Position numbers and translations under genes: made by a program. The notes under the pieces are model-generated. The model saw nothing but the letters and a program-made list of their open reading frames with translations. It was not told the origin of the DNA and made no database searches. Shown here one piece after another: positions 5,904-25,854 of a stretch of DNA of 64,000 nucleotides. The DNA is taken from contig JAJFIQ010000016.1 in the NCBI GenBank assembly GCA_021774785.1, positions 1-64,000 on the forward strand. Reading direction: 5' to 3'. Every line of letters begins with the position of its first letter. The first letter of the stretch is position 1. This DNA comes from Emcibacter sp. (GTDB lineage Bacteria > Pseudomonadota > Alphaproteobacteria > Sphingomonadales > Emcibacteraceae).

Positions 5904-5911
5904 CGATGGGT

Positions 5912-6348: not shown

Positions 6349-6378
6349 ATTTTCCTGATGCCCCAAATTTGACAGTGT

Positions 6379-6447: not shown

Positions 6448-6450
6448 TTT

Positions 6451-7150: not shown

Positions 7151-7231
7151 TGCCGGGGGGCATAGATTAATATTTATTGGATACATAAGGGACATCTCAC
7201 ATTGTCCTGACTCTACTTTTTTCAGCCAGTA

Positions 7232-9427: not shown

Positions 9428-9439
9428 TTGGAGGAAGTA

Positions 9440-9970
9440 TTGAAGGTCAGCTTGCTGGAACATTATCTTGCGCAAAGGCAAGCCTTACAGAGGTTCCTCG
9501 CAGCCCGTCTTAGGGACGAACAGATTGCAGAAGATATTCTGCAGGAAATGTATCTGAAACTTGAACGCACCACGGTGGAAAACGCCATAGAAAATCCGAC
9601 AGCTTTTTTGTATCGCGTGGCCAATAATTTAGTGTTGGATTACCGCAAGGCGGCGTCCCGGCGCCGGGTCCGTGATCATAACTGGTCAGATAGTCAGGTA
9701 ACGCTGATTGGGAAGGAGCCTGTAGAGGATATACCAGATGCGGACCGAGCATTAGATGCCCGGCGTAGGTTTAACCAACTTACAGAGGGGATGAAAGGGC
9801 TTCCCCCCAAATGCCAGTCCGTTTTCATGGCCTGCAAGATTCAGGGGATGACGTATAAAGAGGCGGCGGCCCATCACGGCGTATCAGTCGGCACTGTGGA
9901 AAAGCATATCAGCAAGGCACTGAAATACCTATTGGCCTATATGGGGAGTGAACAAAATGACCATGATTAA
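9440..9970 (+). CDS. FecI-type ECF RNA polymerase sigma factor
   Basis: The chosen start is the TTG at 9440, because GGAGGAAG at 9430-9437 forms a good ribosome-binding site directly before it. The longest frame would begin at another TTG at 9428, overlapping that site. Region 2 includes EQIAEDILQEMYLKLE and NPTAFLYRVANNLVLDYRK. Region 4 has LPPKCQSVFMACKIQGMTYKEAAAH with the helix-turn-helix ending GVSVGTVEKHI. The length (about 176 residues) fits FecI-like factors. It heads the second sigma/FecR/STN-receptor set in the window, all on the plus strand. Signalling would run from the receptor at 11098 through the FecR at 10051. Confidence 0.93.
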   Translation: MKVSLLEHYLAQRQALQRFLAARLRDEQIAEDILQEMYLKLERTTVENAIENPTAFLYRVANNLVLDYRKAASRRRVRDHNWSDSQVTLIGKEPVEDIPDADRALDARRRFNQLTEGMKGLPPKCQSVFMACKIQGMTYKEAAAHHGVSVGTVEKHISKALKYLLAYMGSEQNDHD

Positions 9971-10050
9971 CTTTTTTATGGTGGTAACCCAATGGCGGCG
10001 GCGTCTAATGGTTAGGAAAGAGTATTATCGGTGGTGCCGGGAATATATAT

Positions 10051-11067
10051 ATGAATGAGAAGATAACCGATATAACATTCAAAGAAACGCAGGATGCTGC
10101 GGTTCGTTGGCATGTGCGCTTGGGCGATACGGCAGCCAGTGAAGATGATTGGCTTGCCTTTACCGCCTGGCTTGAGCAGGATGAAAGCCATCGTCTGGCC
10201 TATGATGCCGTTGAGGATATTCTGATTGACCTTGACAATTCCGATCAGGATAATATGGCTGTCCCAATTGAAAGCTCGACATCCGGTGTTATAGATGCCC
10301 GGCATCGGTGGGGTGGTGTGCGTCAGTGGGTCACCGCTGTGGCAGCATTGGCGGCAATGGTCATTCTTGTATTTGGCATGCGTGATATTTCAACACATGA
10401 GATTGCGGTACAGGAATATGCCACCGTTGTTGGAGAGCAAAAGCTTATCACCTTGGCGGATGGGTCAATGTTACGGCTTAACACCAATTCCAAAGTCAGG
10501 GTAAAATTTGAGGATAAGGTCCGTCGAACCGAACTCGTCTTTGGGCAGGTTGTTTATAGTGTGACAAAGGATCCGGCAAGACCCTTCATTGTAAGCCTTG
10601 GGGACAGTCAGGTTAATGTGGTCGGTACCGTTTTTGATATCCAGCGTTATCATAATAAGGTTAGGGTAACCGTAGCCGAAGGTGTAGTTGATGTGGTTCC
10701 CGTATCAGACTTTAAGACAATATCCCGGCGGGAGATTGTCCGGCTTCTTCCCGGGGCACAATTTGCCCATGACGGAGGAACTACAAAAACCAATGTAACG
10801 AAAGTTGATCCGGCAGTTGTCATGGCATGGGAAAATGGCTATCTTGAGTATGATGAAGCCAAACTTGTCGATGTAGTTGATGATTTAAACCGATATTTTC
10901 AAACACCAATCCGCGTCGTTGGTCTGGCCCGGGAACTGCTATTTTCCGGGGTAGTGAGAACAACCGATGAACAGGATGCATTGTTGGTCCTGTCCGAGGG
11001 GCTGCCGATTTATATTGAAAGAAGCAATGGTGTGATATTCTTAAACTCCGGCGCGAAAGGCAAATAA
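10051..11067 (+). CDS. FecR-family anti-sigma factor / inner-membrane signal transducer
   Basis: A 338-residue FecR protein. The N-terminal cytoplasmic part contains AAVRWHVRLGDTAASEDDWLAF. One membrane helix lies at about 94-112 (WVTAVAALAAMVILVFGM). The periplasmic FecR domain shows YATVVGEQKLITLADGSMLRLN and LVFGQVVYSV. The C-terminus ends in a short STN-binding part (LFSGVVRTTDEQDALLVL). It lies 80 bases after the sigma gene and 30 bases before the receptor, consistent with one transcription unit. Its partner specificity would be with the adjacent sigma and receptor rather than with the set at the left edge. Confidence 0.93.
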   Translation: MNEKITDITFKETQDAAVRWHVRLGDTAASEDDWLAFTAWLEQDESHRLAYDAVEDILIDLDNSDQDNMAVPIESSTSGVIDARHRWGGVRQWVTAVAALAAMVILVFGMRDISTHEIAVQEYATVVGEQKLITLADGSMLRLNTNSKVRVKFEDKVRRTELVFGQVVYSVTKDPARPFIVSLGDSQVNVVGTVFDIQRYHNKVRVTVAEGVVDVVPVSDFKTISRREIVRLLPGAQFAHDGGTTKTNVTKVDPAVVMAWENGYLEYDEAKLVDVVDDLNRYFQTPIRVVGLARELLFSGVVRTTDEQDALLVLSEGLPIYIERSNGVIFLNSGAKGK

Positions 11068-11097
11068 TATAGAGCCTGACAAAAAGAAGTTTATTTT

Positions 11098-13563
11098 ATG
11101 CGGTGCAGAAACACACTAATATTTCTGTTTTCTTTTGCAATATTTTTTAATTTTCTGGCGCTCAGGGCGGCGGCTAAAAATACGCATGACTATGATCTAG
11201 AAGTAAGGCCTATAGCCAAGGCATTGGTAGAGTTTGCCAAACAATCTTATATTTCCATTACCCGGCCCCGCCTGTCTTACCGGGATGGCAAAGCAAATGC
11301 CATCAAAGGGCAATATACGTTGGAGCAGGGACTGTCGCACCTTCTAAAAGGAACGAACTTTACCTATAAAATATTATCCCCCACGGCAGTTAAAGTGATC
11401 AGGATACCAAAATATCGGCCTGTGTCGGATGAGCTATCACCGTCAGATGAATATCTGGCGCCTATTATCGAGGAGATTGAGGTTTCTGCAACGCGGCGGA
11501 AGGAATTTTCCGAAAAGCTACCCTATTCTATGTCGGTCATATCCGGCGCGGCGCTGGATCGGCTGAGGGGGGGGGCTACCAATGATGCGGTCTATAAGAT
11601 TGCCGGCTTGTCAGCGACTAATCAGGGCGAAAGTCGCAATAAAATTATCATCAGAGGCCTGTCTGATGGTTCTTTTTCAGGGCGTATTCAGGCGCTGGTC
11701 AGCACATACCTTGATAATTCCCGCTTGATCTATAATGCGCCGGAACCCAGTTTCAGACTATTGGATATTGCCAGTATCGAGGTCCTTCGAGGGCCACAGG
11801 GAACTCTATATGGGTCCGGGTCGCTAGGTGGGATTTACCGGGTGGTGACCAACAAGCCTATGTATGATCGATATGAAGGTGACATTTCCACTGCATATAA
11901 GGTGACTGAAGGTGGTGCGGACTCTCAGGAATATACCGCCATGCTGAATGTACCCGTGATAGAGGGTCGTCTGGCCATACGCGGGCTTGGTTATTTTAAG
12001 GAAGATGGTGGCTATATAGATGATGTTTTTTTAGGGCTGGACAACGTGAATAATAGCGAGCTTTACGGTGGCCGTTTTGCCATTGGTCTGAATATACTGG
12101 AGTGGCTGACCTTAACGGTGGGTATTAATTTTCAACACCAGATAGATGATGATACCAATTATTATGATGAGCATTTGGGGCCGAATAAACGCGATAACTA
12201 CCTACAGGAACCACGTTATGATTTACTGAAACATGGTTATTTGACAATAGAGGCTGATTTTTCATGGGCTGATCTAGTGACAAACCTTTCCTGGCTGGAT
12301 AGGGACCTTGATAATTTCTTTGATGGCACACTGGCCGTTAGAGAGCTGTCTAACCTTCCGCAAATTCCAAGCGCCTTTGAAGACGACAGGCATATTAAAA
12401 CGATCAGCAATGAAACCCATCTCAGTTCCGAGGGAGGGGGTAAATTTGAATGGCTGGCTGGTTTCTTCCTGTCTCACCGCCGTGAAAACCTAGTGGCCAG
12501 TTTCGAGACGCCGGGGTCAGCACAGTTTGCCGGATACGGGCCGACGGATACGCTATTTCAGGAAGAATTGACAGAAAATCTTGATGAAATAGCGGTCTTT
12601 GGTGAGGCCACTTATTTCCTGACCGAACGCTTTGCTGTGACCGGGGGGCTTCGGTGGTTCCATTATAATAATACGGCGGTATCGTTTCTGGATGATGTTG
12701 GTATTGGAAATATTACCGAAGCCAAAGGCCTTCAGCGGAAAAGTGGCGTTGCGCCAAAATTTACCCTCAGTTTTTATGCCAGCGGTGACAGTTTATATTA
12801 TCTTCAGGTGGCGGAAGGTTATCGGCTCGGTGGGATTAATTTCAAGGGGCCGACGGAAATTAACTCGGATGATGACGATGATGACGGGCTCGATCAGTCT
12901 GAATTGAGTACATTTGCATCAGACAAGCTGATAAATGTTGAATTGGGATTTAAACTCCGGTTGCTTGACGGAAAGTTTCGCCTGAACGGGGCTTTTTTCT
13001 ATTCGGACTGGCAGAATATTCAATCCGACCAGTTTGATTCTGCGGGCCTGTCAATCATTGGCAATATCGGTGACGGGCGGGTCATCGGCAGTGAAATAGA
13101 AATAGCCTATAATCCTTTGCGTGCGTTACAGCTTCAGGCCACCGCCGCATGGAATTTTTCAAAACTTACCCAGGTCGACAGCTCTTTCGGGCGGGCGGTT
13201 GGAGCCGAAAAAAACAGCTCCTTTCCTGGGGCGCCGGCCTTTACGATGAATGTGGCAGGACAATATGAATATAGCCTGGGGCGGGATATGATGGCGTTTA
13301 TAGATCTGAGCTATACCTATGTGGGTGGGGCGCATCTGTTGTATGAAGCAGACGCGACACGAAAGTCTGATGCCTATCACTTGGGGACGGCACAGTTCGG
13401 GGTGAACCGGGGGTCTTGGCACATCGCTTTGCTGGTTGATAATATTTTTGATACTCAGGCAAACACATTTGCCTTTGGCAACCCCTTCAGTTTTAGCGAG
13501 ATTGACCACGTAACGCCGCTAAGACCCAGATCATTCAGTCTCCGTCTCGGCTGGGTTTATTAA
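11098..13563 (+). CDS. TonB-dependent receptor with STN signalling domain
   Basis: An 821-residue outer-membrane receptor. The signal peptide ends near LALRAAAKN and an STN domain occupies about residues 33-105 (YDLEVRPIAKALVEFAKQ). The TonB-box region follows (EEIEVSATRRKEF). The plug contains VYKIAGLSATNQG, IIIRGLSDGSF and IEVLRGPQGTLYGSGSLGG. The 22-strand-type barrel ends in aromatic FSLRLGWVY, the usual outer-membrane signature. It closes the second sigma/FecR/receptor set, and its STN domain makes it a signalling receptor. The LRGGA codons lie in a run of nine G at 11567-11575, a possible slippage site. The substrate is unknown. Confidence 0.95.
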   Translation: MRCRNTLIFLFSFAIFFNFLALRAAAKNTHDYDLEVRPIAKALVEFAKQSYISITRPRLSYRDGKANAIKGQYTLEQGLSHLLKGTNFTYKILSPTAVKVIRIPKYRPVSDELSPSDEYLAPIIEEIEVSATRRKEFSEKLPYSMSVISGAALDRLRGGATNDAVYKIAGLSATNQGESRNKIIIRGLSDGSFSGRIQALVSTYLDNSRLIYNAPEPSFRLLDIASIEVLRGPQGTLYGSGSLGGIYRVVTNKPMYDRYEGDISTAYKVTEGGADSQEYTAMLNVPVIEGRLAIRGLGYFKEDGGYIDDVFLGLDNVNNSELYGGRFAIGLNILEWLTLTVGINFQHQIDDDTNYYDEHLGPNKRDNYLQEPRYDLLKHGYLTIEADFSWADLVTNLSWLDRDLDNFFDGTLAVRELSNLPQIPSAFEDDRHIKTISNETHLSSEGGGKFEWLAGFFLSHRRENLVASFETPGSAQFAGYGPTDTLFQEELTENLDEIAVFGEATYFLTERFAVTGGLRWFHYNNTAVSFLDDVGIGNITEAKGLQRKSGVAPKFTLSFYASGDSLYYLQVAEGYRLGGINFKGPTEINSDDDDDDGLDQSELSTFASDKLINVELGFKLRLLDGKFRLNGAFFYSDWQNIQSDQFDSAGLSIIGNIGDGRVIGSEIEIAYNPLRALQLQATAAWNFSKLTQVDSSFGRAVGAEKNSSFPGAPAFTMNVAGQYEYSLGRDMMAFIDLSYTYVGGAHLLYEADATRKSDAYHLGTAQFGVNRGSWHIALLVDNIFDTQANTFAFGNPFSFSEIDHVTPLRPRSFSLRLGWVY

Positions 13564-13718
13564 ATCTGATAGTTCCGTTATGGCAGAATGAAGAAACTAC
13601 CTCAAACATGTCGAGTATGAATAAAATTAAATAAAAAATACTCTAATTAAGCGAAAACCGGCAACTCACATAATATAGCAAAACACAAAAATTCCATATA
13701 TCCCCCATCACAACTATC

Positions 13719-15800
13719 CTAAAATATTGCGCGGTAGCCGACATATATGTAATTACCTGTTGAAGTTTGCTTAATGCCGGAGAAAGTTTCTTTGCGATAT
13801 TCCCAGCCACCTTCAAATTCGAGGTAAAGCCATCTGCCAATGCGATAATCCATTTTAAGCAAAGGTCGAACAATAAATCGGGTATCATTGTCTTGCTTGT
13901 CAGATCTATAATCCATTCTTAGTCTGGGGTTAATGCGGAACTCCCGGCTAATGCGGAATCTGCTATTCAAATACAAGGAAATAGTCCTGTCGCGTTCACG
14001 GTCATTATAACGAACGCCTATGATATGGCTGTCATTTTCAAAAAACAGGCTATTACCCAATAATTGTACAGAACTATATATTTCCGTACCTGTACCTGAA
14101 TATCCTAGAACGCCACCAGACGTTTCCGTACCCGTAAGGTTTGTTGCCGTAAGGTCAACGGACAATTGATATTTTTCCCCTAATTTTTGGCTAAGGCCAA
14201 AAGTGGCTGTTTTGCTGGACGAGGTTCTGTCCGAGGCAAAGATAAAAATTTCATCATTAGTATAAATATCAAACAGGTCTGCTAAATTCTCGACACCTTG
14301 CCCCTGAATAGCGTTAGTCGTGGTTAAGAGCGGGTTTTTTCGATAATCCAGGCTCATATAAATTGTTGTGTCCTTGGAGATAAGCCAGTTTCCATTAAAC
14401 ATAACCAGATTGAGTTCTTTGAAATGGAGGTCATAATCCGCCATTGCAAACAATGACTTGCCGCCTTTGAAATATCTTACTTCGCCCCCTACGGCACGCC
14501 TGTCAAGCAAGCCCTTGTTTTTTTGTTCGATATAATATGTCGTAAAATCCCAATCCTCAGACACATTAGTAAAATCAATACTTGCCCCATAAAATTTCCG
14601 GTCTGTATTGATGTCTGTCTGACGAGAAGACTGTACTGGATATCCGTAAACAGCATTTATTTCTATATCAGAGGTTATCTCATATCCCAGATCAACACCG
14701 TCAAAACGTCCCAGAACCCCTCCGCGGCTTTTTGATTGACGACCCAGTCTGATTTTTGCCCCATGTTTATGGTCCGCAAATGAAAAATATACCCGGCTTA
14801 GCCTTTTTCGATTTTCCCTGCCTTCAAGGAAATTATTTTCATGGCTGCCTACAAACTGAAATCTGGCTTCATAATCTTGATTCCGCATGCGTATATTGAA
14901 GTCCAGGTCCGAATTCAGATTGGAAACATTGACTCTTGCACCTTCACCATTGGATTTTGTCTCATCTCTAAAATAGAATTGTGACAAGCTACCATAAACG
15001 GATGTATCCCACATATTTTTTTCATCTATAGAACCAAGTTTCGCTTCACGAAGTTTTGGCTTGGCTTTCTTTCCTGCAGTCATCAAAGCAGACAATCGCT
15101 GTTTCACCCTTATTGCATCTGCGCCTTCGGGGTAAAGTTTCAAGAAATTCTCATATTCCGCTTTGGCATGGGCAAGTTGATTATTTCTTTGACGAGCGAG
15201 GCCCAAATACTCCAATGCCTGTCGGTGGGTTATTCCCTTTGCTGACAATTCAATCTTGGTAAAAATTTTAATTGCCGTCGAATAATCCTTGGCTCTAAAT
15301 GACGCCATAGCCTCTTTTAATAAGGCCGCATGTTTCGGATTAACCACATCCGTGACGAGCCCGCCAGATTTTACACGAATGGTAATGGACCTTTGATCGC
15401 TGGCAGACTGTATTTCAAATGCGACTTGACGATTGAAAAGAAGTGTGAGAACCGGATTAACAGCATTACCACCTTCCCAGAACATTTCCTGTAGCATATC
15501 AGCTCTTGCATGGTCCCACGTAAGTTCTGACTTTTCAGATAATATCTGAATATCTCTGCCGCTAAGTCCCGTCAATGAGTTTACATTAAATTGAATGCGA
15601 ACAGTGTTCCCCTGAGCGTTAGGCACATGGCTAATATATTGTACCGGGAAATCAAAATTTATTTGAATGACTGTATCACCCATAGACTGTCGAATATCCA
15701 CATTCTCAACTACTCTGGCTTCAACAACCGCAGAGGCGGACAACAGAACGACCATAAAAGCCAGACATTTTATCATTACTCTAACATATACTTTTATCAT
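13719..15800 (-). CDS. Outer-membrane beta-barrel with N-terminal TPR region (putative conduit porin)
   Basis: The start is the ATG at 15800, which overlaps the stop of the upstream 31-heme gene as TGATG. The longest frame would use a TTG one codon earlier. After a signal peptide (ending near VVEARVV) there is a beta-rich, possibly AMIN-like domain at about 30-145. TPR-type helices follow at about 158-240 (LLKEAMASFRAKDYSTAIKIF, QLAHAKAEYENFLKLYPEGA). From about 265 to 694 the sequence alternates polar and aromatic residues, as in a transmembrane barrel, and ends in YVGYRAIF with terminal Phe. Its place at the end of the multiheme operon suggests a role like the MtrB/PioB porins that hold a cytochrome in the outer membrane. 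That is inference; the barrel is shorter than MtrB and I see no clear homology. Confidence 0.72.
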   Translation of the reverse strand: MIKVYVRVMIKCLAFMVVLLSASAVVEARVVENVDIRQSMGDTVIQINFDFPVQYISHVPNAQGNTVRIQFNVNSLTGLSGRDIQILSEKSELTWDHARADMLQEMFWEGGNAVNPVLTLLFNRQVAFEIQSASDQRSITIRVKSGGLVTDVVNPKHAALLKEAMASFRAKDYSTAIKIFTKIELSAKGITHRQALEYLGLARQRNNQLAHAKAEYENFLKLYPEGADAIRVKQRLSALMTAGKKAKPKLREAKLGSIDEKNMWDTSVYGSLSQFYFRDETKSNGEGARVNVSNLNSDLDFNIRMRNQDYEARFQFVGSHENNFLEGRENRKRLSRVYFSFADHKHGAKIRLGRQSKSRGGVLGRFDGVDLGYEITSDIEINAVYGYPVQSSRQTDINTDRKFYGASIDFTNVSEDWDFTTYYIEQKNKGLLDRRAVGGEVRYFKGGKSLFAMADYDLHFKELNLVMFNGNWLISKDTTIYMSLDYRKNPLLTTTNAIQGQGVENLADLFDIYTNDEIFIFASDRTSSSKTATFGLSQKLGEKYQLSVDLTATNLTGTETSGGVLGYSGTGTEIYSSVQLLGNSLFFENDSHIIGVRYNDRERDRTISLYLNSRFRISREFRINPRLRMDYRSDKQDNDTRFIVRPLLKMDYRIGRWLYLEFEGGWEYRKETFSGIKQTSTGNYIYVGYRAIF

Positions 15801-18241
15801 CAAAAATCGCCGTCTGTTGCTCTATGTTCACTATTCCTTCTCCTACTGATCGTCGTCATCGTACCATCGGTATAGGTATGGCAGGACCCAGCACAATCCC
15901 TTAGCTCGCTGACAGAATAAAATGTTTGTGGGCTTTCCGTTTTCTTATGTTCATCAATTTCATAATCATTGGCATGACATGCCGCACAATCCGGTTGGTA
16001 AGCAGGAAATGGCCAAGGGATAACCTGATTATTTGAAGTATGACAATCAAGACAATTCAAACGTCCAGAGCCATGATCAGGATAATTGCCCGTCATGTGG
16101 TCATACGTGGAGAAAGACCAATTTATCGTCGTATGGCATTCATCACATTCCAGGGTGGTAATAAAATGGCCATTATCTTTACCCGTAGCAATGGTTCCAT
16201 TATGACAGCTAGTACATGATCCATTCACAAGGTCATGATCAAAATTAACTGTCGTCCAATTCTGGATAACATGACACCCATCACAGTCCGCAGTCGTTGC
16301 AATATGGGTTGGGTTTTTACCCGTAGCCGTGACACCATCATGACAGCTCTGGCAGTTTCCCAGCACCTGAGCATGATCCACATTAACCGTCGTCCAGTTA
16401 GCCGTCACATGGCAATCTTCACAGACATTGGTTGTCAGTACATGGGTCGGGGTTTTGCCTTCTGCGATTATTCCATCATGGCATGTCGAACAGCTCCCCA
16501 AAACCTGACTGTGATCAACCCCCGTCGTCGGCGTCCATGCATTTAACGAATGGCAATCCTCACAAGCATCAGTTGTTAAAACATGAGTTGGGTTTTTACC
16601 GGTCGCTATCGTTCCATTATGGCATGTTGAACAGCTTCCAAGAACCTGCGTATGATCAACAGATGATACCGGTGTCCAGCCAATCACAGCATGACAATCT
16701 TCACAGACGTTTGTCGTCAGGATATGGCTTGGGTTTTTCCCACCTGCCGTTATTCCATCATGACAACTGGCACAGGTGCCGTTAATATTGTTATGATTGA
16801 AATTTGCCGGTATCCATGCATTACTGGTATGACAATCTTCACAGTCATTTGTGCTTTCCACATGGGTCGGGTTTTTTCCTTCTGAAATGGTGCCGTTATG
16901 GCAACTGAAACATGTTCCTTGAACCTGAGTGTGATCCATATTTACTGTCGTCCAGTTTGTAGATATATGGCAGTCTTCACAAATATTTGTTGTTGCAATA
17001 TGAGATAAGTTTTTACCGGTTGCAATTGTTCCGTTATGACAAGAGACGCAGTTACCCAGCACCTGAGCATGATCCACAGAAGCAGAAGCCCAATTTGTTG
17101 TCACATGGCAATCCTCGCAAATACTGGTTGATAATATATGGTCTGCTGTTTTACCTTCTGCGATTATTCCATCATGGCAACTGGCACAGGACCCCACGAC
17201 TTGGGCATGATCCACATTCACAGGCGATGTCCAGTTTGAAGAAACATGACAATCTTCACAAACACTGGTTGTTGAAATATGCGTCGGATTTTTTCCGGTC
17301 GCCGCTATTCCGTCATGGCAACTGGCACAGGTTCCCAATACCTGTGTATGATCAACTGTGGCGCTGGCCCAGCTAACGGTTGATACATGACAGTCTTCAC
17401 AAATATTTGTTGTCTGAATATGGGAAGAATTTTTACCGTCAATCATCGTATCATTATGACAGGATTGACAATTGCCGTTCACATCATCATGCGTGAATGT
17501 TGCTGGCAACCACCCATTCGTTATATGACATTCATCACAAGTATTGCTCGTAGGAAAATGGTTGGAACTTTTACCGCTGGCTACAGATCCATTATGACAG
17601 CTGAAACATGTTCCCACGACTTCATCATGATCAACACGTGGTATATTCTCCCATCCATTTACCGTATGACATGACTCGCAAAGCTGGGATGTTAAGATAT
17701 GGCTCGGGCTTTTTCCTTCTGCGACTGTTCCATTATGACAACTGACACAACTGGCCACAACACCAGTATGGTCAAAAATAGCATTTGTGAAATTCAATGT
17801 AATATGGCAATCGTCACAATTGTTGCTGCTTGGGACATGAGTAGGATTTTTCCCCGGGGCAGTTTGCCCGTTATGACAACTCTCACAAGAACCAAGAACA
17901 GACCCATGGTCCATACGGGTCAAATTCACCCAACTCGTAGAGGTGTGACAATCTTCGCATTCATTTTGAGTTTGAATATGGGTAAGGTTGCGTTCTGAAG
18001 CGCCTATATTTCCGTTCCGGTCATGACAACTGATGCATCTTTTCGGGGTTCCCAGAAAAACCCCATTAAGATGGCAACTGTCGCAATCAAGTGTTTTATG
18101 TTGCCCTTCCAGCGGAAAACCTGTTTTAAAATGATCGAAATCAGTTTTAGCAACTGCTGTTGCAGTGATCATCCCGAACACAATCAAGGCCAAGGTTATA
18201 TGTTTTTTCAATATTATGAATAAACTCATATACTGTTTCAT
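15800..18241 (-). CDS. Giant repeat multiheme c-type cytochrome (31 CxxCH plus one CxxxCH)
   Basis: This 813-residue exported protein has a signal peptide ending near TATAVAKTD. I count 31 CxxCH heme-binding motifs and one CxxxCH (CAGSCH) near the C-terminus. Motifs 3 to 28 form thirteen tandem units of about 46 residues. Each unit has the pattern CEDCH-x(4)-W-x(5)-DH-x-QV-x-G-x-C-x-SCH-xG-x(3)-GK-x-PTH-x(5). So each unit supplies two heme sites and two further conserved histidines (in DH and TH/SH), the right number for bis-histidine ligation of every heme. The first two and last few motifs are degenerate caps. It overlaps the upstream 21-heme gene by four bases (ATGA) and the downstream barrel gene by one. 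The regular array suggests an extended heme wire across or beyond the outer membrane. Confidence 0.93.
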   Translation of the reverse strand: MKQYMSLFIILKKHITLALIVFGMITATAVAKTDFDHFKTGFPLEGQHKTLDCDSCHLNGVFLGTPKRCISCHDRNGNIGASERNLTHIQTQNECEDCHTSTSWVNLTRMDHGSVLGSCESCHNGQTAPGKNPTHVPSSNNCDDCHITLNFTNAIFDHTGVVASCVSCHNGTVAEGKSPSHILTSQLCESCHTVNGWENIPRVDHDEVVGTCFSCHNGSVASGKSSNHFPTSNTCDECHITNGWLPATFTHDDVNGNCQSCHNDTMIDGKNSSHIQTTNICEDCHVSTVSWASATVDHTQVLGTCASCHDGIAATGKNPTHISTTSVCEDCHVSSNWTSPVNVDHAQVVGSCASCHDGIIAEGKTADHILSTSICEDCHVTTNWASASVDHAQVLGNCVSCHNGTIATGKNLSHIATTNICEDCHISTNWTTVNMDHTQVQGTCFSCHNGTISEGKNPTHVESTNDCEDCHTSNAWIPANFNHNNINGTCASCHDGITAGGKNPSHILTTNVCEDCHAVIGWTPVSSVDHTQVLGSCSTCHNGTIATGKNPTHVLTTDACEDCHSLNAWTPTTGVDHSQVLGSCSTCHDGIIAEGKTPTHVLTTNVCEDCHVTANWTTVNVDHAQVLGNCQSCHDGVTATGKNPTHIATTADCDGCHVIQNWTTVNFDHDLVNGSCTSCHNGTIATGKDNGHFITTLECDECHTTINWSFSTYDHMTGNYPDHGSGRLNCLDCHTSNNQVIPWPFPAYQPDCAACHANDYEIDEHKKTESPQTFYSVSELRDCAGSCHTYTDGTMTTISRRRNSEHRATDGDF

Positions 18242-19812
18242 CTACCTATCCTTATTGTCTTGAAACTTTCCGTAATGTGGCAACGCTTACACATTGTTCC
18301 AAACCTTCCTTGGTGAATGTCATCTGACCGGTGACAGTCTGCACATTCTTTTTCTAATTTTATTTTCCCTTTAACAGGATTTTTATGACAGGCATTACAG
18401 GCCAATCCTGCATGAGCCCCATCTAAATCATATTTTGTCTGCTGATCATGGTCGAACTGCCAGAATGCCCAGCCATTGGGGTTGTGACAGGTGGCACAAT
18501 CTTGTCCCAGAGCTTGCTTGTGAATGTCGTCCGCCTCATGGCAGGAAGCGCAGGCGACTTTTGCATTTTTATATTCGGACGTAATATGACACTCGTCACA
18601 GGCGGTAATGGCATGCATCCCGTTCAAAGGAAAAAGCGTCAAATCATGATCAAACTTTACTTTCTCAAGCCATTTTGTCTGCCCGTGACAGCTTCTACAA
18701 TCTTTGCCCAACTGGCCCTCGTGAACATCATCCGGTGTATGGCAATCAATACAGATACGTAGTTTCTCAGCCTTTTTTTTCTCTCCCCGATGACAGGTAA
18801 AACATTCCACATCTTTATGGGCACCATTCAGGGGAAATTTTGTATCCTTATCATGGGAGAAGCTGGATTTGGTCCAACTGGTTTCAGAATGACAGGTCTC
18901 ACATTTTAGTCCGTTGCGGCCCTTGTGAACATCCACGGGCGCGTGACAGTCGTTACATTTTTTAGAATTTTCCTGTTTTGGCGAAAGGGACGTATGACAG
19001 GCCTCGCAGGCTAGGTTCTCATGTTTTCCCTTCAGAAGAAATTTCGCGTCCTTGGCATGATTAAATTTCGCTTTCTTCCAGTCTTCTGTCTCGTGACAAC
19101 TCTCACATTTCTGGCCGAAACGTCCTTCATGGTCATCATTACCCCCGTGACAATCCACACATGTCGAAGGTGTTTTCTTGTAACGGGGATCCGGATGACA
19201 GCTCTTGCATTCGACCTTTTCATGTTTGCCTTTTAAGGGGAATTTTGTTTTACTGTGATCAAACTTCACTTTCTGCCATATGTCCGACGTATGGCATGAT
19301 TCACACTCCCGGCCCATATCTCCCTCGTGGCTGTCGTCATCTTCATGGCAGGAGAAACAATCTGTCTTGGCTTCATGAAGTTTCTTATCCTTCACATGAC
19401 ATTCATTGCAGCTCACCGAAGTATGTTTCCCGGTCAATATGAAATCCGTCATCTTGTGATTGAAAGTCTCCCGGTTAAAACCGAGGATATCCATATCCCT
19501 GCCTTCGTGATCTGTGTGACAGCTACTGCATTCAGACCCAGACACCTGAGGACTGCGTCCGTGGAATCCCGCAGCCTTCTTAATATCCTGTTCCACATTC
19601 TTATGGCAATCAATACAAAGTGTATTCTGGCGTGTCTGATCGAGCGGTGAATGACACTTTGTACATTGCTCTTTATATTTTTCATGGGCTATGCTTAACG
19701 GCCCAGGCATCACCAAGCTTTCCAGCTTATTGGTCAATTGATCAGCATATGCGGTTCCCGGGATAAGGAACAGTCCCCATAATATGCTTGCCATGGCCTG
19801 TCTAAATGTCAC
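18238..19812 (-). CDS. 21-heme c-type cytochrome built from triheme modules
   Basis: A 524-residue exported protein whose signal peptide ends near GTAYADQ. I count 21 CxxCH motifs. After the first three, the sequence consists of about six modules of roughly 66 residues. Each module has the order CxxCH, FDH...FPLxGxH, CxxCH, CxxCH, DDxHxG. Each thus contains three heme sites and three extra histidines, which fits bis-His ligation as in cytochrome c7/c3-like families. It lies between the b-type membrane protein (9-base gap) and the 31-heme gene (4-base overlap). A role carrying electrons across the periplasm is likely. The sequence is lysine- and aspartate-rich, as expected for a soluble periplasmic carrier. 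Confidence 0.93.
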   Translation of the reverse strand: MTFRQAMASILWGLFLIPGTAYADQLTNKLESLVMPGPLSIAHEKYKEQCTKCHSPLDQTRQNTLCIDCHKNVEQDIKKAAGFHGRSPQVSGSECSSCHTDHEGRDMDILGFNRETFNHKMTDFILTGKHTSVSCNECHVKDKKLHEAKTDCFSCHEDDDSHEGDMGRECESCHTSDIWQKVKFDHSKTKFPLKGKHEKVECKSCHPDPRYKKTPSTCVDCHGGNDDHEGRFGQKCESCHETEDWKKAKFNHAKDAKFLLKGKHENLACEACHTSLSPKQENSKKCNDCHAPVDVHKGRNGLKCETCHSETSWTKSSFSHDKDTKFPLNGAHKDVECFTCHRGEKKKAEKLRICIDCHTPDDVHEGQLGKDCRSCHGQTKWLEKVKFDHDLTLFPLNGMHAITACDECHITSEYKNAKVACASCHEADDIHKQALGQDCATCHNPNGWAFWQFDHDQQTKYDLDGAHAGLACNACHKNPVKGKIKLEKECADCHRSDDIHQGRFGTMCKRCHITESFKTIRIGR

Positions 19813-19821
19813 ATAAGATCC

Positions 19822-20829
19822 TTAATACCAATGCACCGCAGCTACATGAACAATGGCCGCAATCACCAACATGAAGAAAAGCGGCAAATGCAACACGTGC
19901 CAAAGCGCAAACATGCGTTCATAAAAACCGAATTCTATAAGCTTCCGGGTATGATGAAGAAAATAGCTGGACTCACGAACGATAACTTTTACTTTTGTTC
20001 TTACTTCCTTTCGGGATTGGTCTTTATTATTGGCCCGAACAAGCTTCTTAATCTTTCTGATCAAAAGCCGCGAACGAATTCCCGCGCTCATCACTCTTTC
20101 CCAGCTATGAAAGAGGCCTTTTGTGGGTGTCAGAAAATGCTCCACAAAGCTAAAGAGCTCTTTTTTTACTTCGGGATAAAGCTGTAAGAGTGCTGTTAAC
20201 TCTTGCTGATCACTCTGGAGCCTTTCTTTTAGTTGAGCTACCTCAATTTTTTTGCCGTATAATCCATGATGAATTTTTGTATAGATATACCGGCCAATCA
20301 CGCCACTTGCCGATACAATCAGCATGGAAAATAACGCCACATTACTGTTAGTGGAGCCCAAACTGAAATTTGAATGATACAGAATCAGCACCGGCCCCAG
20401 TACACCTAATATCATATGAATAGCAAACCAGACCCTCACATTTCCAATAAGCCGAAAAATACGAAATCGCTTGCGCAGGGGATAAAGCAGCAACGCAAGC
20501 ATCATGCTTCCCCCAATTATGCCAAGGGCGTAACCTGTACCCTCCTCAGCCGTAAAATACTCAAATTTCCGAAGACGGAAACCGACAAAAATGGCAAATA
20601 AGGTTAAGAGGCCAAACACATAAGGGCAGCATTTCCATAGGAAATCACTCAATTGAAATGGCGTCACGGGCTTTTCTTTTTTACCAAAATGGTTTGGTTC
20701 TTTTTCTTCCCGAGCTTTCTGAACCTGTAATTTTTCCGTCAATAGAATATCCTTAGCCTGCCTTTGTTTTTCTTTATTTCTTTTTAAGGCCTCATACTCA
20801 GGAGAGGTCGTATTTTGATTTTTCAGCAT
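19822..20829 (-). CDS. Diheme b-type cytochrome-like integral membrane protein
   Basis: A 335-residue protein with a charged cytoplasmic N-terminus (about 60 residues). Membrane helices lie near 68-85, 99-117, 132-152, 164-182 and 308-333. The third helix contains His138 and His152, and the last contains His314 and His328. Each pair is spaced by 14 residues, the arrangement that holds two stacked b hemes between two helices in cytochrome b and ferric-reductase-type proteins. Extra histidines occur at 311 and 333. A charged, helical segment (about 195-290) separates the two helices. I find no flavin or nucleotide motif, so it is probably the inner-membrane step between a cytoplasmic donor or quinol and the periplasmic 21-heme protein. 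No specific named family was recognised. Confidence 0.75.
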   Translation of the reverse strand: MLKNQNTTSPEYEALKRNKEKQRQAKDILLTEKLQVQKAREEKEPNHFGKKEKPVTPFQLSDFLWKCCPYVFGLLTLFAIFVGFRLRKFEYFTAEEGTGYALGIIGGSMMLALLLYPLRKRFRIFRLIGNVRVWFAIHMILGVLGPVLILYHSNFSLGSTNSNVALFSMLIVSASGVIGRYIYTKIHHGLYGKKIEVAQLKERLQSDQQELTALLQLYPEVKKELFSFVEHFLTPTKGLFHSWERVMSAGIRSRLLIRKIKKLVRANNKDQSRKEVRTKVKVIVRESSYFLHHTRKLIEFGFYERMFALWHVLHLPLFFMLVIAAIVHVAAVHWY

Positions 20830-20843
20830 AAATTCACCTTTCC

Positions 20844-22730
20844 TTAAAAAATGTCATTAATCCATGAATGTGAGGTTTCATATTCTTCCAAAAGCGCAAG
20901 GAGGTTTCTGTTGTTTGTATCCACAACAGTATGGGCTTTTTCACGTTTGTTATTTCGTATGCGTGGGTTGCTGCCCCGCTTCAACAATACTTCCGATACA
21001 TTATAATAGCCTCCACGCACCGCCATAATAAGCGCCGTGTCTCCGATATTATTTTTATGATCTAGGTTTTTAAATTTGGACAAATATGACACCACAGCGA
21101 CATATCCATTATCAGCCGCCAGCATGAGGGCGGTGTTGCCCTCTTTTGTCAGCCATAACACATCCGAGCCCACATCAGCCAAGTATTTAACACAGAATAA
21201 TTGTCCATTCTGCGCGGCGAGAATAAGGGCTGTCCGTCCCATGGAATCTTTCTTATAAATATCTGCTTTATGAGCAATGAGGCTTTTAATGCCAGCAGCA
21301 TTTCCATGGCGTGCCGCGACCATCAAAGCGCTCTCCCCGACAGCGTTCACAGCATTAACGTCCGCTCCACTTCTAATCAGTAATAAAATTAGATTTTCGT
21401 CTGCTTTTGCTGCCATTATTATAAGCGGGGAAATTGACGATCCATGTGCAAGTGTTACGCCCTCTTTAAGCATCAGGTCAGCAATATTCATTTTCCCGTT
21501 CAACAGTGAAAAAGCAAGCGTGGCCTCCATCATTTTCTCGCAACTAACATTATCCTTTAAAGCAGAAACTAATCTGCGTATCACATTTTCATGACCTTGT
21601 TTTGCTGCAACATAGAAAGCATGTTTCTCAATATCTCCTATGCAACTTAATCCTGCTCCAGCTTCCAGAAGTGAATAGATTATCTGAAGATGTCCCCCCT
21701 GTGCTGCCAACGCCAGAGCCGACATACCAGAATTATCTTTGATTTCCAAATCCTGCCCCTTGCTCAAGGCGGCTCTGACGGCTCCTTCATCACCGCGCCA
21801 TGCACCATACATAACAGGCGTCCAGCCACGATTCTTATTGTTGGTTATTTGTGTTTTTAACTGCTTCAGGTTCTGCACTTTTACCTGTCCATCCAACAGA
21901 CGGGCCAATTTTTTCCCGCCGGATGTCTTAATCAGACTTATCAGTTTTTTATTTTTATAACCAACGGCAATACCATATGCAGTCCGGCCTTTGGCATCGG
22001 TGACAAATATATTCGCACCCTTAGCCAATAAAAATTCTGCCATCGGCTGATCATTGCGGTAAGTTGCCAATATTAAAGGCGTGCATTTCTTTCGGTTCCG
22101 AATATTTATATCGGCTCCGGATTTTATCAGAGTTTTGACAAGTGCAAGATTATTGCTACTGGCCGCAATAAGTAATGCTGTATCCCCGTCCTCACTGCGA
22201 ATCTCAGTTTTGGCCTGACTTTTAAGTAAAAACACTGACATTTCCGAATGACCGGAGCGGACTGATTCCATAAGGGGTGTAATACCGAATTTATCCTGAT
22301 AATTTACATTCGCCCCGGCTTTTAGTATTTCTTTGGCCGTTGCCAGATCACCCTTGCGTGCCGCCTTTAACAATTGCACTTCCGGTTTTTTCTCCGTAGC
22401 TTTCAGAGACTGCGTATTTTTTTGAAGGGTAGCCAGCCTTTTCTGAGCTTTTACATGGCCCTGCGCTGCGGCTTTTATGTACCATTTTTGTGCCTCAATA
22501 TTATTCTTAGGCGTTCCTTGTCCCGCCTTATACATACCGGCAAGACGATATTGAGCATTCGAATTTCCCAGATCAGCTTGAGTAAGGAAAAGTTTAAATG
22601 CAATATCAAAATTACGATTTCGGGCCGCATACATGGCATCTTCCATAGAGGCCTGCGCCGGCAGGATAAATAGAACAGCCATTAATATGGTAACACAACT
22701 TTGTCTATAAAATGAAACAGAAAACTTCAT
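20844..22730 (-). CDS. Exported Sel1 / ankyrin-repeat protein
   Basis: A 628-residue protein with a signal peptide ending near LPAQAS. Two Sel1-like repeats come first (NSNAQYRLAGMYKAGQGTPKN, EAQKWYIKAAAQGHVKAQKRL). From about residue 120 there are a dozen or so ankyrin repeats (GITPLMESVRSGHSEMSVFLL, GDTALLIAASSNNLALVKTLI, GESALMVAARHGNAAGIKSLI). Its ATG follows directly after the TAA of the Fe-S/FAD gene, and the cytochrome-b-like gene follows after 14 bases, so it is embedded in the electron-transfer operon. It has no cofactor motif and is probably a periplasmic scaffold or assembly factor for the cytochromes. That role is inferred from position only. Confidence 0.85.
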   Translation of the reverse strand: MKFSVSFYRQSCVTILMAVLFILPAQASMEDAMYAARNRNFDIAFKLFLTQADLGNSNAQYRLAGMYKAGQGTPKNNIEAQKWYIKAAAQGHVKAQKRLATLQKNTQSLKATEKKPEVQLLKAARKGDLATAKEILKAGANVNYQDKFGITPLMESVRSGHSEMSVFLLKSQAKTEIRSEDGDTALLIAASSNNLALVKTLIKSGADINIRNRKKCTPLILATYRNDQPMAEFLLAKGANIFVTDAKGRTAYGIAVGYKNKKLISLIKTSGGKKLARLLDGQVKVQNLKQLKTQITNNKNRGWTPVMYGAWRGDEGAVRAALSKGQDLEIKDNSGMSALALAAQGGHLQIIYSLLEAGAGLSCIGDIEKHAFYVAAKQGHENVIRRLVSALKDNVSCEKMMEATLAFSLLNGKMNIADLMLKEGVTLAHGSSISPLIIMAAKADENLILLLIRSGADVNAVNAVGESALMVAARHGNAAGIKSLIAHKADIYKKDSMGRTALILAAQNGQLFCVKYLADVGSDVLWLTKEGNTALMLAADNGYVAVVSYLSKFKNLDHKNNIGDTALIMAVRGGYYNVSEVLLKRGSNPRIRNNKREKAHTVVDTNNRNLLALLEEYETSHSWINDIF

Positions 22731-24056
22731 TTATGCCACTCCGTGCTTTGTTTCAATATTAATACCAATGTCCTTCAGGAAAGCTGTTGGCAAAATTCCG
22801 CCTGCACAGACTATCACCACATCATTCCGAAGGGTGATTGGATTACCTTCCCGTTCAAGAAGTATTTCATCTGGTGAAATAGAACTAACGTTTGAAGACA
22901 GCATCACATTCAATCGCCCAGCCTGAATTTGTGCTTCGACCATATCGCGGTTTTTTTGTTTTGCCCGGCCAAAGGCCGCGCTTCGGTAAGATAAGGAAAC
23001 TGTCGTCCCTTCTACCTCTGAAATGGAGACCGCAGCTTCCAATGCACTGTCTCCGCCGCCAACCACAAGCACGTGTTGCTCAGCATATTGTTCTGGGTCG
23101 ATAAGGCGATATACCACCTTGTCCAAATCTTCTCCCGGCACATTAAGCTTTCGCGGTGTACCCCGCCGCCCAATGGCAAGTAAAATATTTTTAGCCCTAT
23201 ATTGGCTTTTCTCGGTTTGAACACAGAAAAGATCGTTGGAAGGTTCTATTTTGACCACCCGTTCACCATATTGAATCTCCAATCCGGTCTTTTCGCGAAC
23301 ATCATTCCAGAAATCCAGCAATTTTTCTTTGGTCGTTTCATACATTTTAACCTTGCCGAATATGGGTAAATTTACCGGCTGGGTCATAACAACCTTGCCC
23401 CTGGGGTAGTGAGCAACCGTGCCGCCGAAAGTTTCCTGTTCCAGCGTGACAAAAGATACTTTTTTCTCCATCGCTGCCAGAGAAGCTGAAAAACCGGACG
23501 GTCCAGCGCCAATAATGATAATATCAAGAATATCGCTCCCGTTATGGGATGTATTAGCAGGTGTCTTCCGTTCCATGATAAATTGAATAGCTTGCTTGCC
23601 CTGTTCGATGGCGTTTCTGATCAAACCCATGCCGCCCAGTTCTCCGGCTATGAAGACGCCAGAAACATTTGTTTCAAAGTTTTTCTGTACGAAAGGGATA
23701 TCTATTCCGCGTTTTTCCGTGCCGAATACAAGTTCTATGGCATCCAACGGACAGGATTTCTGGCAGGCGCCATGTCCAATGCAGTGAGTCGGTGCAATCA
23801 ATTCTGCTTTGCCACCGATTACCCCCAATACATTCTTCTCCGGGCACGCCTTAATACAGGCGGCACAACCCAAACATTTGTTGGGGTCAATCACCGGGTG
23901 AAGTGATGGTGGCTCTATCAGGCCTGCGGCCAGTTCTTCTTCCTTCCGCAGGCGGCTATTATGCTCTTTTCTAACTTTCTTAAAATAATATATGGTCAAC
24001 GCACTAACAATGATTACACCATATGCCAGCCACTTAAATTCAAAAACTAAAAACAT
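22731..24056 (-). CDS. Membrane-anchored Fe-S / FAD-dependent pyridine-nucleotide oxidoreductase
   Basis: A 441-residue protein. One N-terminal membrane helix (about 8-26) is followed by a two-cluster ferredoxin domain. The first cluster has Cys61, Cys64, Cys67 and Cys71. The second has Cys92, His95, Cys98 and Cys102, so His replaces the usual second Cys. From about residue 178 comes a thioredoxin-reductase-like fold. It has the FAD motif GAGPSGFSAS, the NAD(P) motif VVGGGDSALEAAVS and the terminal ATG-like CAGGILPTAFL. The active-site CxxC of true thioredoxin reductases is absent. It is the first gene of the multiheme operon and would feed electrons from NAD(P)H or ferredoxin into it, or receive them. 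It shares a divergent promoter region with the ccmG-like gene. Confidence 0.87.
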   Translation of the reverse strand: MFLVFEFKWLAYGVIIVSALTIYYFKKVRKEHNSRLRKEEELAAGLIEPPSLHPVIDPNKCLGCAACIKACPEKNVLGVIGGKAELIAPTHCIGHGACQKSCPLDAIELVFGTEKRGIDIPFVQKNFETNVSGVFIAGELGGMGLIRNAIEQGKQAIQFIMERKTPANTSHNGSDILDIIIIGAGPSGFSASLAAMEKKVSFVTLEQETFGGTVAHYPRGKVVMTQPVNLPIFGKVKMYETTKEKLLDFWNDVREKTGLEIQYGERVVKIEPSNDLFCVQTEKSQYRAKNILLAIGRRGTPRKLNVPGEDLDKVVYRLIDPEQYAEQHVLVVGGGDSALEAAVSISEVEGTTVSLSYRSAAFGRAKQKNRDMVEAQIQAGRLNVMLSSNVSSISPDEILLEREGNPITLRNDVVIVCAGGILPTAFLKDIGINIETKHGVA

Positions 24057-24315: not shown

Positions 24316-24846
24316 ATGAAAAGATATTTAATAATTATTTCTGGCCTGATATTTTGTTGGCAGATTATATGGATTTTCTCGTCTGATGACGGCCCTGTTT
24401 CAAGTGAAAAACCTGCTGCCCATATTCCAGATTTTTCCCTTCCGTCCCTGTCCGAGCCCAGCCAAAGTATCATCCGTTCGGACCTGAAAGATCAAAATAT
24501 CAGGATCATTAACTTCTTTGCCTCTTGGTGTGGCCCGTGCAGGATAGAACACCCTTTACTGCTAGAGCTAGAACAAAAAGGTCTGCCCATATTGGGTATT
24601 AATTTCCAAGACCGACAAAATTCAGCCCTGTTGTTTCTTAAAAATATTGGCAATCCATACAAATTAACCGCCTGGGATAAAACAGGAAAGCTGGGGGCCC
24701 GATGGGGTATCATGAGCATACCCCAAACCTTTGTTATTGATGAACAGGGGAAGATTCTTTATCACAAATCAGGTCGTCTGCACTCGGACGATATAACCAA
24801 CCACATTCTGCCTCTGCTACAGGGTAGTAAACCCAATAGTCTCTAA
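24316..24846 (+). CDS. ccmG: CcmG/DsbE-like thiol:disulfide oxidoreductase
   Basis: A 176-residue TlpA/ResA-family thioredoxin tethered by an N-terminal helix (YLIIISGLIFCWQIIWIF). It has the redox motif WCGPC (INFFASWCGPCRIEHP), a GxxxIPQTFVIDEQG cis-Pro loop, and a length typical of CcmG. In cytochrome c maturation System I, CcmG helps keep the apocytochrome CxxCH cysteines reduced before heme attachment. It is followed after 12 bases by a ccmI-like gene and is divergent from genes encoding at least 52 heme sites. It may be a dedicated copy for that cluster; ccmA-F and ccmH are not in this window. Confidence 0.85.
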   Translation: MKRYLIIISGLIFCWQIIWIFSSDDGPVSSEKPAAHIPDFSLPSLSEPSQSIIRSDLKDQNIRIINFFASWCGPCRIEHPLLLELEQKGLPILGINFQDRQNSALLFLKNIGNPYKLTAWDKTGKLGARWGIMSIPQTFVIDEQGKILYHKSGRLHSDDITNHILPLLQGSKPNSL

Positions 24847-24858: not shown

Positions 24859-25854
24859 ATGAGTTGGCTCATTCTATTAATTGCATCTTTCATAAGTGCC
24901 GCCCTAATATTATATGCTTTATGGCCAAAAACAGATGATCATAAATTTCATAAAACTGGGGTAATTCTACTTGCCATCACCGTCATTATTCTACCTGCTG
25001 GTTTGAATTATTATAATAATATTCCCGAACAACCGGTTTCAGCTGTTCGTGAGTCCTCCTTCAATATTCCCGACATGAAAAATTCTGTATGGTCGGGTGG
25101 CTCAACGCTAGTCCAGCCTACCATTTCAAAGGACATGTCCATGTCCGGTGTCACAGCCCGGCTCGAAGAAAAACTCAGACAAAATCCCAATGATATTGAT
25201 GGCTGGATTCTGCTGGGCCGCTCCTATGCAGCACTGGACTCGTCAAATAAAGCCATTGACTTATTTCAGGAAAAAATTGACCAATATCCCGACAATATAA
25301 ATTTGCTGGTATCTTATGGTGAAACACTGACGCAGCTTAACAATGGTACAATAACGGATGAAGCCAAAGACTTGTTCCTGCAAGCCCGATCCCTGAATAA
25401 TACACATCCACGTGTAGAATATAATCTTGCCCAATATGACATGCAACATGGTCAAAATGAGCAAGCCGTTAAGCGTCTAAAAAAGCTTCTGGATTCAGCC
25501 CCAGAAAAAGCAACGTGGAAAAAACAAATTTTGGAAAGTATAACCCTTGCTGCAAATAAGGTTGACCTTGTAACAAAGCTGCCAGACCCGACGCCTGAAC
25601 AAATGAAAGCTGCAAACAACATGTCAAAAGAGGATCGTAACGCTTTTATCAGAAACATGGTGAACAGATTGGCTGATAAACTGAAAGAAAACCCCAATGA
25701 TCAACAGGGATGGCTCAGGCTTGGAAAATCATATAGTGTTTTAGAGGAGTGGCAGAAAGCCGCCCATGCCTATCAACAGGCTATGAAACTAGACCCTAAA
25801 GATGAAAAAATAAAAGAGCTTTATCACAGTGCCCTCACCCAAAAAGGAAAATAA
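24859..25854 (+). CDS. ccmI: CcmI/CycH-like cytochrome c biogenesis TPR protein
   Basis: A 331-residue protein with two N-terminal membrane helices (about 1-23 and 31-52). Two TPR blocks follow, at about 90-190 (LEEKLRQNPNDIDGWILLGRS) and 260-325 (LKENPNDQQGWLRLGKSYSVL). CcmI proteins bind the C-terminus of apocytochrome c and deliver it to the heme ligation complex. The two-helix plus TPR layout, and the ccmG-like gene 12 bases upstream, support this reading. An unrelated TPR membrane protein is the alternative. Confidence 0.8.
   Translation: MSWLILLIASFISAALILYALWPKTDDHKFHKTGVILLAITVIILPAGLNYYNNIPEQPVSAVRESSFNIPDMKNSVWSGGSTLVQPTISKDMSMSGVTARLEEKLRQNPNDIDGWILLGRSYAALDSSNKAIDLFQEKIDQYPDNINLLVSYGETLTQLNNGTITDEAKDLFLQARSLNNTHPRVEYNLAQYDMQHGQNEQAVKRLKKLLDSAPEKATWKKQILESITLAANKVDLVTKLPDPTPEQMKAANNMSKEDRNAFIRNMVNRLADKLKENPNDQQGWLRLGKSYSVLEEWQKAAHAYQQAMKLDPKDEKIKELYHSALTQKGK

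Follow-up and report, generated by a model that had tools for sequence, protein, structure and literature searches.

Positions 13,719 to 24,056 of the 64,000-nucleotide stretch analysed here (the window: bases 1-64000 of contig C8, GenBank JAJFIQ010000016.1, in the 28-contig, 3.5 Mb genome of Emcibacter sp., assembly GCA_021774785.1) carry an operon of six genes. The explanation that we favour, and regard as likely, is a PCC3-type trans-envelope electron conduit of about 52 hemes that works with a cytoplasmic dehydrogenase partner. It is the partner that looks new: a flavoprotein outside the four-gene definition of this porin-cytochrome type accompanies the cytochrome-linked inner-membrane protein (IMP) in every genome sampled.

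The six-gene operon

The six open reading frames (ORFs) are all open and co-directional; they lie on the minus strand between 24056 and 13719. In the order of transcription they are:

22731..24056, minus strand: flavoprotein, 441 aa; residues 2-20 form a membrane anchor at the N-terminus, followed by a ferredoxin domain and a module of the FAD/NAD(P) disulfide-reductase type (Fer4 and Pyr_redox); predicted cytoplasmic
20844..22730, minus strand: Sel1/ankyrin-repeat protein, 628 aa, with a signal-like N-terminus and Sel1 and ankyrin domains; exported-looking
19822..20829, minus strand: PCC3-type IMP, 335 aa, with five predicted transmembrane helices and two predicted b hemes (motifs W134/H138/H152, S175-G176-x-x-G179 and W310/H314/H328)
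18238..19812, minus strand: 21-heme cytochrome c (CXXCH count), 524 aa, 25.0 aa per heme, with a signal-like N-terminus; predicted periplasmic
15800..18241, minus strand: 31-heme cytochrome c (CXXCH count) with one further CX3CH, 813 aa, 26.2 aa per heme; an extracellular location is predicted from the analogy with PCC3
13719..15803, minus strand: outer-membrane protein, 694 aa, with Phe as its last residue; an AlphaFold2 model gives it a beta domain at the N-terminus, TPR-like helices and 22 strands in the C-terminal part; the predicted porin of the set

The successive gaps are 0, 14, 9, -4 and -4 bases, and the preliminary description of the region, which had six genes on one strand linked by start/stop overlaps or by gaps of at most 14 bases, is accurate on this point. 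The domain contents that it gave are also found (Fer4 and Pyr_redox in the first protein, Sel1 and ankyrin in the second, Cytochrome_C7/Cytochrom_c3_2 repeats from Pfam in both cytochromes). The six-gene order occurs in seven loci, namely the window, L004, L005, L006, L007, L021 and L022, the last two belonging to another family of the order; because it is seen again in six loci besides the window, the operon is not an assembly accident. The related loci L003 and L008 run off the ends of their contigs.

Probable assignment to PCC3

As defined by He et al. (2017; PMC5566968), PCC3 combines a barrel with two cytochromes, one outside the cell (median 34 hemes) and one in the periplasm (median 21 hemes), and with an IMP of about 300 residues. 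This IMP has five helices, of which the fourth bears SGXXG and the third and fifth each bear WX3HX13H; the cytochromes have 22 to 39 residues per heme, with a median of 26. The IMP of the window has five helices in its model, both WX3HX13H motifs and SGXXG. The predicted periplasmic cytochrome combines 21 CXXCH with its signal-like N-terminus, the predicted extracellular one agrees by number (31 CXXCH and one CX3CH against the median of 34), and the values of 25.0 and 26.2 residues per heme both lie within the published range. The barrel agrees as a prediction only, with 22 strands in a low-confidence model. Because the IMP motifs, the heme counts and the residues per heme all fit, we suggest that four of the six genes are very probably the PCC3 set, a comparison made by description only for named PCC3 proteins such as Slit_1446-1449, which are given with Slit_0867-0870 as the examples from Sideroxydans lithotrophicus ES-1 (PMC5566968). 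The window and PCC3 thus share the four components, the motifs of the five-helix IMP, the heme numbers and the residues per heme; they differ in that the operon of the window opens with the flavoprotein gene and the Sel1/ankyrin gene. The motif, heme-count and layout match supports the inner-membrane-to-surface, porin-cytochrome logic that had been proposed for the operon. Conserved synteny with a system of different function had been named as what would speak against that proposal; the synteny is that of PCC3, for which the same function is proposed. Nor is such a conduit unexpected in this class, as had been supposed, since PCC3 has already been reported from Alpha-, Beta- and Gammaproteobacteria, an Erythrobacter sp. 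included (PMC5566968). PCC3 itself has been called functionally unverified (PMC12442390).

The motifs that are diagnostic of PCC3 are those of the IMP. Both WX3HX13H motifs and SGXXG are invariant in 16 of the 16 aligned sequences, with four histidines conserved, and the helices of the model (mean pLDDT 67.4) span residues 60-85, 94-113, 131-152, 160-187 and the end of 273-334. Helices 4 and 5 are separated by a loop of about 120 residues that holds 25 Lys and Arg. The charge distribution predicts a cytoplasmic location for the N-terminus and this loop, which would orient H152 and H328 towards the periplasm and H138 and H314 towards the cytoplasm. The earlier label of a b-type membrane protein therefore holds for its membrane part (five helices in the model, four conserved histidines), while its heme b is predicted. 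Neither Pfam nor NCBIfam has a family that the protein matches above cut-off, and its profile found nothing convincing in the PDB. Weak Pfam matches among the 16 members include DUF6713 (9/16, best E 0.0053), DUF4405 (8/16, best E 0.016) and cytochrome b561 (PF01292, 2/16, best E 3.8); a plasmid search with the IMP gave four weak partial matches of at most 30.5% identity.

The conduit would work like MtrCAB, MtoAB and PioAB, which also pair a barrel with periplasmic and surface multiheme cytochromes, and the 21-heme protein both passes PF22113 (MtrC/MtrF domains II/IV) and has MtrF as the best PDB match of its profile. However, the cytochromes of the window have 21 and 31 hemes, not 10, and the barrel profile has no MtrB-type match among solved structures. 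We rejected membership of the Mtr/Mto/Pio/DmsE group on these heme numbers and on the scores for TIGR03508 (111.3 of 192.2 bits) and TIGR03507 (42.5 of 209.3 bits). The preliminary description was right that no part is recognisably Mtr, Pio or OmcS, the NCBIfam scores for Mtr-type families being far below their cut-offs, but the system is not an unrecognised one, as its type has been described as PCC3. The PF22113 score is 35.4 against a cut-off of 30 bits, reached with a best stretch of 30 residues and no stretch that passes alone; this model is not specific, because a NapC-type protein also reaches 29.8 bits. The MtrF match (E 7.4e-7) covers the 85 residues 346-430. Both matches are read as common heme-repeat sequence, a short and generic heme stretch.

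PCC4, with three periplasmic multiheme cytochromes and no extracellular one (PMC5566968), and the clusters grouped as 'other multiheme cytochrome c' share with the window a multiheme cytochrome, a five-helix IMP with HX13H and a further redox protein. One related cluster, L023, described below, resembles these.

The flavoprotein as companion of the IMP

We called the flavoprotein at E <= 1e-80 and the IMP at E <= 1e-20 (phylum sample). The flavoprotein is present in 16 of the 18 genomes picked for carrying the IMP, the window's own among them, and also in the genome of L008, which brings the count to 17/17 genomes in which the IMP lies beside multiheme cytochromes (loci: the window, L003-L008, L021, L022, L039-L043 and L056-L058). 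It is found in neither of the two genomes with an orphan IMP gene (G012 and G015), both of which also have no 21-heme cytochrome and are incomplete (88% and 77%). Of these orphans, the one in G012 (L019, 7644-8663) keeps the motif residues and is located between genes that flank the operon region in L004, and the one in G015 (L020, 151-1185) has an internal stop; both look like what remains after loss of the rest of the operon.

The same pattern is seen in broader samples. Among the 398 genomes of the phylum sample, the IMP and the flavoprotein occur in an identical six and neither occurs alone (5/397 without the window's genome); among the 385 genomes of the class sample, they occur in an identical four, again neither alone (3/384). 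Both samples include the window's genome, and genome G184 is common to them. The naive probability of identical sets in the phylum sample without the window's genome is 1.2e-11, a value that is descriptive only because the genomes are related. We conclude with good confidence that the flavoprotein is a functional partner of the conduit. The main text of PMC5566968, whose PCC3 section names four genes, contains none of the terms FAD, pyridine nucleotide, ankyrin or Sel1, and 'PCC3' is absent from the main text of PMC11475568. In the open-licence literature we found no link between the flavoprotein and PCC3; the sole co-mention of 'PCC3', 'multiheme' and '4Fe-4S' found has the last term in an unrelated table row, and a wider look for PCC3 added no microbial paper to those cited here.

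The charge distribution predicts that the body of the flavoprotein lies on the cytoplasmic side. Its ferredoxin domain has the sites C61-x2-C64-x2-C67-x3-C71 and C92-x2-H95-x2-C98-x3-C102. Two-cluster ferredoxins usually carry Cys at the His position of the second site; here the C-x2-H-x2-C-x3-C arrangement (window residues 92-102) is found in all 12 flavoproteins checked, a set that left out L003 (cut before the site) and the genomes of L008, L039, L041 and L056. The invariant His makes a His-ligated cluster possible. The first site is without its second Cys in L042, L043 and L057.

With YpdA and thioredoxin-reductase-like flavoproteins the protein shares an FAD and NAD(P) module. The YpdA model (TIGR04018) scores 171.4 bits, and among PDB entries the closest is 7a7b, a Bdr/YpdA structure (E 6.6e-34). 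The flavoprotein differs in reaching only half of the YpdA cut-off (339.9 bits), on which we rejected membership of the bacillithiol reductases, and in its additional N-terminal anchor and ferredoxin domain. A segment of the flavoprotein (ETNVSGVFIAGELGG...) resembles the C-terminal FAD motif of thioredoxin reductases, yet it precedes the FAD Rossmann fold. When this segment is moved to the end, the YpdA match, which otherwise covers profile positions 1-265 of 316, reaches position 311, and the rotated sequence scores 174.0 bits against 162.9 without the moved segment (84.0 against 76.4 for thioredoxin reductase). Five shuffles of the segment gave 162.3-168.1 bits for YpdA, one of them stretching the match to 299 of 316, and 75.6-76.6 bits for thioredoxin reductase; the native full-length protein gives 171.4 and 82. 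These scores are suggestive of a circular permutation of the flavoprotein, with a modest margin (174.0 against 168.1 for the best control).

In a distant cluster of genome G034 (L023, 6570-11645), an 814-aa fusion of Pyr_redox, two cNMP-binding stretches and Fer4 is encoded with an IMP-like protein and a 10-heme cytochrome that has a YscD-type (FHA-like) N-terminus. It is possibly a porin-less relative of the same three-part module, and as such we count it for the reading that we favour. Near it (1494-5600) is a gene for a 1368-aa protein with 10 CXXCH and LVIVD repeats.

Cytochromes, predicted barrel and putative accessory protein

The preliminary count of 21 and 31/32 hemes agrees with ours, the uncertainty in the larger number being the CX3CH at residue 783. 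Both counts are far above chance, as 500 amino acid shuffles of the same composition gave means of 0.28 and 0.40 CXXCH and never more than 3. In the 31-heme protein, 26 of the 30 spacings follow a heme repeat of 23/24 residues. With 35 spare histidines for 31 hemes and 22 for 21 hemes, each cytochrome has at least one per heme, so bis-histidine ligation throughout is possible. In the whole genome the Cytochrome_C7 family has nine matches, eight in the operon and one in the NapC-type gene.

Among the 17 loci, the periplasmic-type cytochrome has 21 hemes in 12 and 24 in five (L040-L043, L058). The surface type is more variable: complete copies have 31 hemes (the window, L004, L005), 19 (L006, L007), 33 (L021, L022), 27 (L040) or 49 (L058), the ORF of L042 has 34 with an uncertain start, and in L043 the hemes are split into 11 and 13 in two genes. 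These two genes of L043 (G399, 11937-16474) flank the barrel gene. The distant relatives (L039-L043, L056-L058) have the IMP, the periplasmic and surface-type cytochromes and, where the contig allows, the barrel; none of them showed the ankyrin gene. Among the loci examined, the Sel1/ankyrin gene is limited to families f1 and f4 of one order, and in L021/L022 its product is only about 32% identical, compared to about 44-62% for the other five parts. We suggest that it is a lineage-specific periplasmic accessory, added locally.

The description of the last protein as a TPR-beta-barrel stands as a prediction for the barrel (22 strands; mean pLDDT 59.2, pTM 0.41), and its TPR part has sub-threshold support in profile searches, where TPR and BamD-type families are the matches. 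Against the PDB, the profile gave 32 rows, a TPR-type segment, and no MtrB-type structure among the solved ones. The 50 Foldseek matches listed are outer-membrane proteins only (E 3.6e-5 to 9e-4, with TM-scores of just 0.13-0.42), and the fold identifies nothing beyond generic outer-membrane barrels.

The barrel bears on whether the surface is reached at all. The location of the 31-heme protein is not fixed by sequence, and the large number of hemes would also suit an electron store (capacitor) or a periplasmic redox buffer, with storage among the roles raised in the Gallionellaceae pangenome (PMC10734462). However, a barrel-type protein is present in all ten relatives whose contig extends past the surface-type cytochrome (L004-L007, L021, L022, L040, L042, L043, L058), and we consider a system confined to the periplasm very unlikely.

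Proposed electron path and direction

We propose that NAD(P)H or ferredoxin exchanges electrons with the FAD/Fe-S flavoprotein, which would be anchored to the cytoplasmic face of the inner membrane. Electrons would pass from FAD through the Fe-S clusters and the two b hemes of the five-helix IMP to the 21-heme periplasmic cytochrome, and from there, through the TPR-containing outer-membrane barrel, to the 31-heme surface cytochrome. Net flow would more often be outward, as in an NADPH oxidase, with the acceptor outside the cell. Of this scheme, the operon, the heme and IMP motifs, the signs of PCC3 membership and the tie between flavoprotein and IMP are observed, whereas heme b, the protein locations, the carrier and the direction are inferred. 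The analogy was drawn for the HX13H motif by He et al. (PMC5566968): with NADPH oxidase and ferric reductase (FRD) the window's set has in common HX13H on helices 3 and 5 and, by analogy, a flavin dehydrogenase partner predicted on the cytoplasmic side. It differs in that the flavin part is a separate protein of another flavoprotein type, and searches of Pfam and of folds gave the IMP no match to that family.

Several observations weigh against this proposal. Homology of the IMP to NADPH oxidase/FRD is confined to the motif level and has no convincing support from Pfam, PDB profile or fold searches: the FRD domain (PF01794) is absent among the 22 Pfam families matched by any of the 16 IMP members at E up to 10, a range in which HMMER filters drop most weak matches, and Foldseek gave no match at E <= 0.001, FRD-like folds included, its VIA rows being mostly generic helical bundles. 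The flavoprotein is below the cut-off of every NCBIfam family among the 25 of 116 matches listed (best 171.4 against 339.9 bits), and its substrate is therefore not identified by homology. In four of the 17 genomes (L039, L041, L056, L008), its gene and the IMP are on separate contigs. In the proposal of He et al., PCC3 exchanges electrons with the quinone pool at its inner end (PMC5566968). Expression data also count here: both PCC3 clusters of Sideroxydans ES-1 are down on Fe(II) relative to thiosulfate (PMC8788666), and on magnetite PCC3 proteins are at low to middle percentiles or undetected, a 28-heme one at 0 (PMC12016527); both results also count against a role in iron oxidation. We see even chances that the carrier on the cytoplasmic side includes NAD(P)H or ferredoxin and is not just quinone.

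The main alternative reverses the direction. Fe(II), minerals or other cells would supply electrons to the surface cytochromes, which would pass them on via the IMP to the quinone pool, with the flavoprotein in assembly, in regulation or on a side branch. This matches the model of He et al. (PMC5566968), and two reports on iron oxidisers are contrary to an outward lean: PCC3 is complete in 26 and partial in 11 Gallionellaceae genomes (PMC10734462), and the IMP of PCC3 copy 2 in Sideroxydans CL21 increases along with iron-oxidation activity (PMC12442390). The genome of the window also has a one-heme cytochrome-barrel gene reminiscent of Cyc2. On the other hand, uptake leaves the constant presence of the flavoprotein unexplained, the ES-1 clusters respond to Fe(II) in the wrong sense, and RuBisCO was not found in the genome, so Calvin-cycle lithoautotrophy is not supported. 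We regard uptake as possible but somewhat doubtful. For the NAD(P)H-coupled conduit, we lean to outward flow because reduction of NAD(P)+ by Fe(II)-like electrons would, on general bioenergetic grounds, run uphill in chemical terms as well as against the membrane potential, and because of the missing RuBisCO; even so, the chances of outward net flow appear to us about equal to those against it.

Genome context and cytochrome c maturation

Upstream of the operon, on the opposite strand, are two genes that recur at the same place in L004-L007:

24057..24315, no strand: A+T-rich divergent intergenic region between the operon and the cytochrome c maturation genes; would house the operon promoter
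24316..24846, plus strand: thioredoxin-like protein, divergent neighbour (Pfam Redoxin; CcmG-like is our own label)
24859..25854, plus strand: CcmH/CycH-type TPR protein of cytochrome c maturation (PF23914, 98.5 bits)

In the region scanned, promoter-like and terminator-like sites were at chance level (25 against 26.3 expected, and 11 against 10.1).

The maturation genes allow another role for the flavoprotein, which could supply reductant to cytochrome c maturation and travel with the locus since its heme load needs dedicated maturation. Such genes adjoin at least 10 of the 17 loci (the window, L004-L008, L040, L056-L058), and in L040, L057 and L058 the flavoprotein gene ends the ccm row. However, in the window and six relatives the conduit operon begins with this gene, in L021, L022, L042 and L043 no ccm gene was recognised beside it (by BLAST with the window's two ccm proteins only), and the window's flavoprotein has no CXXC beyond its ferredoxin sites. 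We consider this role improbable and retain the flavoprotein as the dehydrogenase partner of the conduit.

On the 3' side of the operon, on the opposite strand (9428-13563), an ECF sigma factor, a FecR-type anti-sigma factor and a TonB-dependent receptor form a regulatory trio of the iron-siderophore type; no receptor of this type was seen adjoining the operon in L004 or L005. Elsewhere in the genome (L044, C11:947000-963000), the region 4467-7918 encodes the Cyc2-like protein, so named by eye from its single N-terminal CXXCH and barrel-like C-terminus (377 aa; no Pfam match and no NCBIfam match near cut-off). The same cluster has a monoheme cytochrome, a flavocytochrome c sulfide dehydrogenase flavoprotein (PF21706, PF09242) and a NapC/NirT tetraheme cytochrome.

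The distribution of the system is patchy: within the family of the window it is met in 7/24 genomes, a count that takes in the window's own genome and the two with orphan genes, and in the order sample in 11/296. In gene trees, the six Emcibacteraceae-type rows form one supported group, and the deeper branching is without resolution. We found no literature that ties Emcibacter to extracellular electron transfer, the name being met in one listed paper and there only inside a reference.

Implications

In the literature that we found, PCC3 has no known cytoplasmic partner, and the constant flavoprotein makes the question of its electron source or sink (NAD(P)H or quinone) directly testable. As a tentative idea, which we do not think implausible, PCC3 may be a five-component, NAD(P)H-coupled conduit, instead of a four-component one coupled to quinone, that bypasses the quinone pool: an NADPH-oxidase-like machine reaching outside the cell, whose obligate and overlooked component would be a circularly permuted, thioredoxin-reductase-like flavoprotein fused to a membrane-anchored ferredoxin domain with His at the second position of its second cluster site. 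This component would send cytoplasmic electrons straight through the two b hemes into the wire of about 52 hemes. The flavoprotein is a better marker of complete systems than the low-complexity cytochromes, and the six-gene operon offers a compact, co-directional unit for heterologous expression.

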